32,698 bases of DNA from positions 1-32,698 of the forward strand of contig CANHQR010000040.1 of assembly GCA_947462815.1 (NCBI GenBank), read 5' to 3'. Under the pieces are notes generated by a model. The model saw only the letters and a list, made by a program, of their open reading frames with translations, was not told the DNA's origin and searched no databases. Of the stretch, positions 25,181 to 27,684 are shown in pieces (positions within the stretch are counted from its first letter, which is position 1; each line of letters begins with the position of its first letter). The position numbers and the translations under genes are program-made. The stretch comes from Pseudobdellovibrionaceae bacterium (GTDB lineage: Bacteria > Bdellovibrionota > Bdellovibrionia > Bdellovibrionales > JAMPXM01).

Positions 25181-25394
25181 TAGGCACTCGGTGTTTCGGC
25201 GACAACGCTGGAGACTTCGCGGCACGAGCGACTAAGGTCGGGCTCGACCACGCGAGCGGAGCTCGGTGCCGACGACGTGCTAATCTGAGAAAGTGTGAAC
25301 GGCCTGCTGTGAAAGCGGCCTGGACGTCGACGAGGAAGCATGTCTTGGAGCGGGCCTCGTGAGCGTGGAATCAAGCAAAAGAGGAGCTCAAAAT

Positions 25395-26033
25395 ATGGGA
25401 CTCATTTCCCTCGGCTTTCTGCGAATAAGGTCGTTGGCGACGTTTTCAGCTTTGCTGTTGGCTGGCGGTGTGAGCGCGGTCGGCGTGACTCAAGAGGCGA
25501 TGGCCTCGTCCGCTTTCGCCTTGCTCGGCGACTATGGAAAAGACACGGCCCAGATGCGGGCGCCAGGTCGGCATTCAACGCGCTCGGAGTTGTTTGAGGC
25601 TCCCGGTCCTGCGCGAAACGATGGTTTTGATTTGCTGCGCGGGTCGGAGAGTCGCGTCTTGGCGATTCGCTGTGAGGAAGGATGGGATGGCCCTCGCGTG
25701 TGGCAATACAGGGACGCGATCCTCAGCGAAAAATCGGACGACCAAAGTACGCGTCACTTGCGCTATCAGTTTCAAAATCTCGATGAGTGCTTCAAAGCTC
25801 GGGATGCTTTGAGCTCGACTCGCGAAGCGGGTTGCCGTGTAAGAATTGATTTCATCGGAGGACAACCCAAGGGTACGGCGCGGTTTCGCGGTGTCGAGTG
25901 CGACTCGCAGACGGCGTCGACGTCTTCGGGGGCTCGTGCTGGCGCGTCCGGCTCGACGCCCGGATCTACACCTGGATCAGCACCGAGTCGTGCCCCGGCT
26001 CCGTCGACGCGACCGCCGCGGGTTTCGCGATAA
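25395..26033 (+). CDS. Secreted hypothetical protein (212 aa)
   Basis: No family recognised. ATG at 25395 is preferred to an upstream in-frame GTG (25359) because AGAGGAG precedes it at about 8 bases. A signal peptide is evident (MGLISLGFLRIRSLATFSALLLAGGVSA, with possible cleavage near AMASSA). The mature part has about 125 ordered residues with four cysteines in positions such as 'IRCEEGWDG', 'LDECFKA' and 'GCRVRIDFIG', compatible with periplasmic disulphides. A low-complexity Ser/Gly/Pro/Arg tail closes it. It stands alone between dps (divergent) and the structured non-coding block. Confidence 0.72.
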   Translation: MGLISLGFLRIRSLATFSALLLAGGVSAVGVTQEAMASSAFALLGDYGKDTAQMRAPGRHSTRSELFEAPGPARNDGFDLLRGSESRVLAIRCEEGWDGPRVWQYRDAILSEKSDDQSTRHLRYQFQNLDECFKARDALSSTREAGCRVRIDFIGGQPKGTARFRGVECDSQTASTSSGARAGASGSTPGSTPGSAPSRAPAPSTRPPRVSR

Positions 26034-26187: not shown

Positions 26188-26221
26188 TAAAATAAAAAAC
26201 CCGCCGTGGGGCTGGCGGGTT
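26188..26221 (-). terminator. Rho-independent terminator of the c-di-GMP-I-like RNA
   Basis: On the minus strand AACCCGCC (26221-26214) and GGCGGGTT (26205-26198) form an 8-bp stem with an 8-base loop, followed by TTTTTTATTTT (26199 leftwards). A second stem GGGGT/ACCCC lies just before it. Confidence 0.92.
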
Positions 26222-26447
26222 CGGGGTTCACGGACCCCGTTACCGATGAATTCCTCCAAGATGCTTGCTCAAGTGCTTCTCGTCCTCTGGCAGCTTGGCT
26301 GGCGTCGTGCACCGATACGTTGGCGGGAGACCGTGCACATTAGCCCCATTAGCTTTGCGTCCCACTCTTTCGAGTGGTTTGCCCTGAGCAAAGGAGGGAT
26401 TCTGTCAGCATATCAATAGAACCTCCTTGTCGAAGTCCGACTGACAG
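26194..26447 (-). ncRNA. Stand-alone c-di-GMP-I (GEMM) riboswitch-like RNA, merRNA-like
   Basis: On the minus strand, 26385 down to about 26348 reads AGGGCAAACC, a hairpin with GAAA tetraloop (ACTC-GAAA-GAGT), then GGGACGCAAAGC. This is the conserved core of class I c-di-GMP riboswitches, including the A and G that stack on and pair with the ligand. The closing helix P1 is TTGCTCA (26391-26385) with TGAGCAA (26271-26265). A second hairpin, GTGCAC/GTGCAC within 26309-26339, is the P3 equivalent, with GGCUAAU resembling a tetraloop receptor. The RNA ends at an intrinsic terminator, and beyond it the next gene is convergent, so no cis target exists. In B. bacteriovorus a similar RNA, merRNA, is massively expressed in attack phase and was proposed to sequester c-di-GMP. 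The 5' end is unknown; 26447 marks the outermost paired element. Confidence 0.85.
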
Positions 26448-26577
26448 TTGAACAGACCTAACCTCTATGTCGTGTTGATCCCCGCTACTCTGGCGGAGGA
26501 TCCGAAATCCTAATGGACCTACTCGGCATCCTTCTTCCCCCTACGGCGCCGCGATATTTGGACCCTCAAGTTTCCCT

Positions 26578-26613: not shown

Positions 26614-26755
26614 CTTCCGTGGCTCACCGTGAAACCAGATTATCGCAATGCGTCAAAAGAGTGAAGAAGAAGTCGGCGAGTGTCGCAACATCAAACACTA
26701 GCTCGGCTCAAGCTGAGACGGTCGCGCTCAAAGCGCCGAAAAAAGCACGGCGCTT

Positions 26756-26806: not shown

Positions 26807-27589
26807 TTAGATCAGCCGCGAAGCGATTTGTGCGAAAGCCTTGGACTCTTCGCTAGAGGGATCGCTCTCAACGACGGGAATTCCAGCTTCGCCCCCCAAG
26901 CCGACGTTGGGATGAAAGGGGACCTCGCCGAGTTTCATCAACCCGCGCTCTTCGAGCCAGCGGTCGAGCGAGCCCTTCGGGAAAAGTTGCACGCGCTCCG
27001 TGCTGCCGGGAGGTACAAACCAACTCATATTTTCGACCACACCGATCACCGGCACCTGCACACGGGCCCACATGTCGATGGCCTTCTTCACATCCGTGAG
27101 AGCCACATCCTGAGGAGTGCTGACCGCAATGGCGCCAGCGACCGGAACTTTTTGGGCGAGTGAAAGCTGAATGTCGCCTGTGCCTGGCGGCAAATCCACC
27201 AGGAGGACATCCAACTCGCCCCAAGCCACTTCGCGAAGGAATTGATCCATAGCTTTGAACAGCATGGGGCCGCGCCAAACCACGGCGAGATCTTCGTCGA
27301 CAAGGTAGCCGATGCTCATCAGCTTGAGGCCGTAGCGCTCCAGTGGTTGCAGAAGGTTGTTCTCGCCGAGGGCGACCTTTTGCTGCAAGGTTCCCGTCAT
27401 TCGCGGCAGTGAAGGGCCGTAGATGTCCGCGTCGAGCAAGCCCACCTTCAGACCTTTTTTGGCGAGGGCGAGGGCAATATTCGTGGCCACCGTGCTTTTG
27501 CCGACACCACCTTTGCCGGAAGAAACCGCGAGAATTCGCTTCACGCCCGGGATGGGCCGCTGTTGGTCGAAGGGATTCATTTGTGCCAT
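26807..27589 (-). CDS. mrp: Mrp/ApbC-family P-loop ATPase lacking cysteines
   Basis: 260 aa from ATG 27589 with GAGG 6 bases upstream; a GTG at 27610 is a less likely start. The deviant Walker A SGKGGVGKST lies at about residues 24-33, then 'VGLLDADIYGPSLPRM', 'VVWRGPMLFKAMDQFLREV', 'LDVLLVDLPPGTGDIQLSL' and 'VSTPQDVALTDVKKAIDM', all diagnostic of Mrp/ApbC/Nbp35. These proteins carry and transfer Fe-S clusters. The usual CxxC after 'VENMS' is replaced: here the text is 'VENMSWFVPPGSTERVQLFPKG', and the protein has no cysteine at all. The N-terminal DUF59 (MIP18) domain of longer Mrp proteins is also absent. Cluster binding by the classic bridging CxxC is therefore impossible. Divergent from the J-like gene. 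Confidence 0.93.
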   Translation of the reverse strand: MAQMNPFDQQRPIPGVKRILAVSSGKGGVGKSTVATNIALALAKKGLKVGLLDADIYGPSLPRMTGTLQQKVALGENNLLQPLERYGLKLMSIGYLVDEDLAVVWRGPMLFKAMDQFLREVAWGELDVLLVDLPPGTGDIQLSLAQKVPVAGAIAVSTPQDVALTDVKKAIDMWARVQVPVIGVVENMSWFVPPGSTERVQLFPKGSLDRWLEERGLMKLGEVPFHPNVGLGGEAGIPVVESDPSSEESKAFAQIASRLI

Positions 27590-27684
27590 CGTGAGCCTCA
27601 CTTTTTTCAAGCCGATCCCCGAGTTTCCGGGTTCTCGTGTCGAGTTTCGAAACCGCTCAAGCGCCTTGGCGTTCAGTATGTCGC

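Follow-up and report, generated by a model that had tools for sequence, protein, structure and literature searches.

The locus described here raises the question of what a riboswitch-type aptamer may serve when no gene stands behind it. The DNA analyzed, referred to below as the window, is a stretch of 32,698 nucleotides from a Pseudobdellovibrionaceae bacterium, and its minus strand encodes an RNA with a class I cyclic di-GMP (c-di-GMP-I) aptamer. This RNA shares with the GEMM-I cis riboswitches (RF01051) the aptamer class and the conserved contact segments. They precede a gene, whereas the window RNA terminates and is followed by a convergent gene.

The window was compared with Rfam using cmscan, which gave a match to RF01051 of 71.5 bits (E 2.5e-12; gathering score 35) covering model positions 1-87 of 87. 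By this match the window RNA is a full-length member of the family, which confirms the class I core recognized on the minus strand in the preliminary description. The same description had judged the 3' half to deviate from the usual pattern and suggested that the ligand site and affinity may be altered. Neither suggestion was borne out, as the model aligns end to end, running through CAGCC..GCUGCC with no non-standard pairs marked; in an alignment of 36 relatives, compensatory changes were found at 11/15 predicted aptamer pairs, and the GGC and CGCAAA segments were unchanged throughout. The genome of origin contains five GGDEF matches, which makes it likely that c-di-GMP is produced in this organism; five are also present in genome G004, which we take to be that of Bdellovibrio bacteriovorus HD100. 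The position deciding between c-di-GMP and cGAMP, which we assume to be correctly placed by the Vc2 numbering, retains GG in 91/91 loci, and GGC is kept in the window aptamer. A G20A mutant of the c-di-GMP-I aptamer accepts cGAMP (PMC7288161). A cGAMP-type aptamer is unlikely here, because the deciding position is still G.

The features of the locus are collected in Table 1. A sequence scan upstream of the window RNA gave no match to a sigma-70 consensus promoter. A GCGnTAnnnT-type motif was present upstream of 55/108 relatives' loci, a modest excess over shuffled sequences (mean 30, maximum 36). Judged from the predicted promoter, RNA synthesis would start at ~26630, and the likely transcript would extend from there to ~26190 (minus strand), roughly 440 nt. 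The extent originally proposed, 26194-26447, represents only the 3' part of this likely transcript. The intrinsic terminator reported shortly after the aptamer was corroborated: it begins 63 nt 3' of the aptamer (loop AGCCCCAC, then TTTATTTT), and terminator-like hairpins within 190 nt of the aptamer were found at 67/88 loci of the order and class that offered sequence of sufficient length, bases being allowed between stem and T-run, compared with 4/88 and 3/88 in control stretches. AAGGAGG-like and pyrimidine elements resembling those of the pre-aptamer hairpin are present in most relatives, and their pairing appears in the single-sequence folds of many of them, not all; the minimum-energy fold of the window RNA does not contain this hairpin.

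Table 1. Features of the RNA locus and its neighbors in the window
Feature	Position	Strand	Remarks
mrp/ApbC gene	26807..27610	-	PF10609, E 7.3e-94; upstream, co-directional, syntenic neighbor of the RNA
Predicted promoter	26637..26665	-	TTCACT (26665-26660), 17 nt, TAATCT (26642-26637), in GCGATAATCT
Shine-Dalgarno-like GGGGG of leader mini-ORF	26537..26541	-	sequence
Leader mini-ORF, ATG..TAG	26485..26529	-	MPSRSIRISDPPPE-stop; pattern in 64/90 leaders, codon-level conservation
Pre-aptamer hairpin	26391..26428	-	AAGGAGG (26428-26422) may pair with CCTCCTT (26397-26391)
c-di-GMP-I aptamer, complete	26393-26286	-	RF01051 match, covariation in relatives
Intrinsic terminator and T-run	26190..26222	-	stem 26222-26197, 9 pairs
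Convergent orphan gene	25359..26033	+	ORF; likely start 25395; probably secreted
Dps-like ferritin gene	25134-24598	-	next co-directional gene, ~1.05 kb past the terminator, between RNA and mltD

The aptamer has a single match in the 3.43-Mb genome of origin and none in 14 control genomes. It was found in 89/141 genomes of the order, 91/144 of the class and 137/369 of the phylum, always in exactly one copy per carrying genome. Genes in the window are arranged in the order ppdK, glyS, mrp, RNA, orphan, dps, mltD, SLT/TPR; a tRNA gene lies at 2282-2211 (minus strand), and the G+C content of positions 1-2000 is 0.47, compared to about 0.56 elsewhere. Within the flanks examined, mrp is located upstream of the RNA and co-directional with it in 45/88 loci, and an mltD-like gene is convergent downstream in 45/84. 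When longer flanks were considered, the glyS-mrp-RNA-mltD block was found to span the window's family and to reach two genomes of a sister order.

The assumption that G004 is strain HD100 agrees with the position of its aptamer match, 1073868-1073951 (minus strand), inside the published merRNA. This RNA occupies 1,073,741-1,074,185 on the reverse strand of HD100 (PMC3627812), and the terminator of G004 with its T-run ends ~10 bases or less from its published 3' end. In the comparison with the HD100 locus, an mrp (66% identity) was also seen directly upstream of merRNA in the presumed HD100 genome. The shared glyS-mrp-RNA-mltD locus argues for an ortholog of merRNA and not an analogue, and by its synteny, single copy, order of parts, terminator and the match within the published interval, all read from sequence, the window RNA is a merRNA ortholog. 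The preliminary description had left open whether it is homologous or analogous to merRNA; its place next to mrp, the single copy and the order of parts uphold the former and not the latter. Like merRNA of HD100 (PMC3627812), it is predicted to be about 440 nt long and carries a single c-di-GMP-I aptamer and a terminator of its own, with no gene in cis. The 2013 merRNA paper did not find conservation outside the Bdellovibrio lineage (PMC3627812); the class-wide aptamer matches go against a merRNA confined to Bdellovibrio.

Upstream of the aptamer, the leader of the window RNA contains a mini-ORF. Leaders of relatives have AGGGGG or AGGAGG at the place of the Shine-Dalgarno-like GGGGG of the window, followed by a short ORF whose last codons mostly specify proline and then K or E (e.g., MSKLPKEWLLDPPPK, MFKVPKERRLDPPPK, MKNRIHDHHDEPPK and MKRIFNHNDKSPK). 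The leader mini-ORF of the presumed HD100 genome, MRTHEHHDDELK, starts near 1,074,121 (minus strand) and lies inside the published transcript. The window RNA and HD100 merRNA thus share, by the present analysis, both the position downstream of mrp and a leader mini-ORF, but the HD100-type peptide ends in DELK and that of the window in DPPPE. A pattern comprising start, Shine-Dalgarno sequence and ending, defined after examples had been viewed and applied to relatives that are not independent of one another, was matched by 64/90 leaders, two of these matches being doubtful since they start with TTG. The same pattern was found in 1/90 antisense leaders, in 0/89 stretches further upstream and 0/87 downstream, and it was matched a mean of 0.3 times (maximum 2) in dinucleotide shuffles. 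Further mini-ORFs, missed by the Shine-Dalgarno rule, are present in the leaders of G051 and G077. Carriers belong to about 25 genera in five families, and about one third of leaders, including those of whole genera and of family f6, are without a recognizable mini-ORF.

The mini-ORF is conserved at the level of codons. Among DPPP-type tails (n=18), the synonymous share of codon differences is 76% in frame, compared with 9% and 2% when either other frame is read; the values for Bdellovibrio-type tails (n=31) are 40% versus 6% and 11%. Bases 1 and 2 of the three proline codons hardly vary, while base 3 can be any of the four letters. A pattern search for DPPP[KE]-stop in the whole genome of origin gave one occurrence, the leader mini-ORF itself. 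The codon-level conservation suggests that selection acts on leader translation, and together the excess of the pattern and the in-frame synonymous changes support translation of the mini-ORF by comparison. The view of this RNA as simply non-coding is therefore incomplete, and it is probably not purely non-coding. A wider genome search gave 10 stretches with the CTTTGC..aptamer form, of which 8 came from Bdellovibrio relatives; the remaining two (L117 and L118) lack a mini-ORF of the leader type. In one leader (L015, genome G140) three mini-ORF endings apparently stand in tandem (..LDPPPE, MAKVKIFRLDPPPE and MKLHSKQWNLFPPPI), and in the leader of G077 (L047) only a few bases separate TATTCT from the ATG of the mini-ORF (..LDSPPK) that follows it, an arrangement like that of leaderless messages.

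The 2013 proposal of a pure non-coding c-di-GMP sponge, in which the leader ORF would not contribute to what the RNA does, has to be weighed against these data. It is favored by the extreme abundance of merRNA in HD100 (~2 million RPKM in attack phase; PMC3627812), by the lack of a gene behind the RNA, and by several genera that keep the aptamer without a mini-ORF. The sponge role was itself presented as a model yet to be validated (PMC3627812), and a 2024 paper reported a lower merRNA level in stator mutants. Since the mini-ORF is conserved at codon level over so many genera, we regard a leader without any role as unlikely.

What the leader peptide may do is suggested by its tail. In systems of the mgtL/mgtA type, a short proline-containing leader peptide is encoded on the same RNA as the sensor, as in the window RNA; unlike the window RNA, which no gene follows, they control a downstream gene. 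Systems of this kind, combining a leader peptide with an RNA sensor, are treated in PMC5021804. Polyproline runs can stall ribosomes (PMC4176338, PMC4140641), but the section consulted of the former does not rank DPPP. Pausing is not a general feature either, since leader mini-ORFs of Bdellovibrio often have no PPP. For both of these reasons, a polyproline-type ribosome arrest, which EF-P would relieve, is only a possibility at the proline tail.

A second alternative is a cis riboswitch, in which ligand binding would decide whether transcription stops at the terminator or continues into a co-directional gene further downstream, dps in the case of the window's family. In the window, however, the place of a controlled gene directly downstream is taken by the terminator and the convergent orphan gene, which intervenes between the RNA and the same-strand Dps-like gene. 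The orphan has no Pfam or NCBIfam match, but it is probably a real gene, as its ATG is preceded by a Shine-Dalgarno sequence and its N-terminus is signal-peptide-like. The observation that there is nothing to control in cis thus stood up, and the window arrangement supports an RNA that stands alone, with no adjacent gene to regulate. In G080 some 240 nt separate the Dps-like gene from the aptamer, and in G082 the gene has a similar place, which is what a cis switch would call for, yet dps behind the RNA was seen only in part of the window's family; G081, G086 and G089, as well as other families, have a convergent gene there instead. The terminator loop AGCCCC (within 26222-26197) is perfectly complementary to GGGGCU of the aptamer in four genomes of the window's family (G000, G081, G082 and G084), a match that is weak evidence for switching because near relatives share the same terminator.

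Also cited in favor of a cis switch may be the aptamers of other classes of the phylum. In most of the loci inspected in families f22 and f25-f27, a single aptamer precedes a queE-like radical-SAM gene, identified by N-terminal sequence. With this gene directly behind it, the aptamer of these families probably controls queuosine-type synthesis in cis. In most of the loci inspected among L093-L107, an upstream GAAGAGG is able to pair with a downstream CCTCTTC. Weak queE-family matches in the genome of origin and the presumed HD100 genome lie away from the RNA, which sets the merRNA locus apart from the queE-linked one. Taking both sides together, we consider control of a downstream gene by the window RNA very unlikely.

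In Bdellovibrionaceae, a second mini-ORF is found 3' of the aptamer, ending in DWFHSP-stop or a variant of it. An in-frame ATG is open in 47/49 loci with a DWFHSP-type motif, whereas the two alternative frames gave 4 and 10 such loci. The distance between ATGGAAG and the motif varies from 25 to 54, yet it is divisible by three in 41/43. The copy in the presumed HD100 genome is MEGTNTYKDWFHSP. The 2013 paper did not find a conserved ORF downstream of the riboswitch (PMC3627812). The second mini-ORF (MEG..DWFHSP-stop) lies ~35 nt 3' of the aptamer, e.g., at L031. The sequence with which it ends, CCCCUUAGC, is almost fully complementary to GCUAAAGGGG of the aptamer and could form an anti-aptamer strand. 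This mini-ORF is absent from the window, in which respect the window RNA differs from HD100 merRNA, and from the window's family and f9. A GGAGG conserved after the aptamer in the window's family was considered as a mini-ORF sign and rejected, as no start codon is in step with it and indels break the frame. That the main role of the RNA is to serve as mRNA for micro-peptides under the control of the aptamer, as the framing and spacing of the second mini-ORF might suggest, is highly improbable given its absence from these groups and the leader ORF lying 5' of the aptamer, an unusual site for aptamer control.

We therefore favor, with fair though not full confidence, an autonomous RNA of ~440 nt that is orthologous to merRNA, keeps an intact aptamer, ends in a terminator of its own, has no neighboring gene to control in cis and contains a leader mini-ORF that is translated, and which would act as a c-di-GMP buffer or in trans. 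The sponge or trans-acting role raised in the preliminary description is compatible with this reading. According to this merRNA-ortholog model, the RNA would be abundant in the free-swimming phase and bind c-di-GMP tightly, serving as a c-di-GMP buffer or a ligand-responsive trans RNA and not as a switch of a neighboring gene. Ribosomes on the mini-ORF might slow as they approach the proline tail and the stop codon, and could then keep Rho and nucleases away from the leader, or gate the folding of the aptamer. Synthesis or stability of the RNA would thereby be tied to translation of the leader. More tentatively, and with the odds against it, merRNA and its relatives may be dual-function RNAs, in which the status of the ribosome at the mini-ORF, such as pausing at the proline tail or termination, sets the amount of RNA or its ligand-binding state.

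We did not find a conserved tiny ORF on this supposedly non-coding, merRNA-type RNA described before; a search of openly accessible papers gave no earlier mention of mini-ORFs in merRNA, also when reports on small ORFs within small RNAs of Bdellovibrio were sought. In 2013, merRNA was reported as a non-coding RNA restricted to Bdellovibrio, with an abundance equal to that of all mRNA combined (PMC3627812). Being class-wide, single-copy and kept at one locus, the RNA is older than the genus Bdellovibrio. The one or two conserved mini-ORFs suggest simple mutants for testing the storage model. If true, the dual function would link c-di-GMP buffering with translation capacity as cells change between free swimming and growth.
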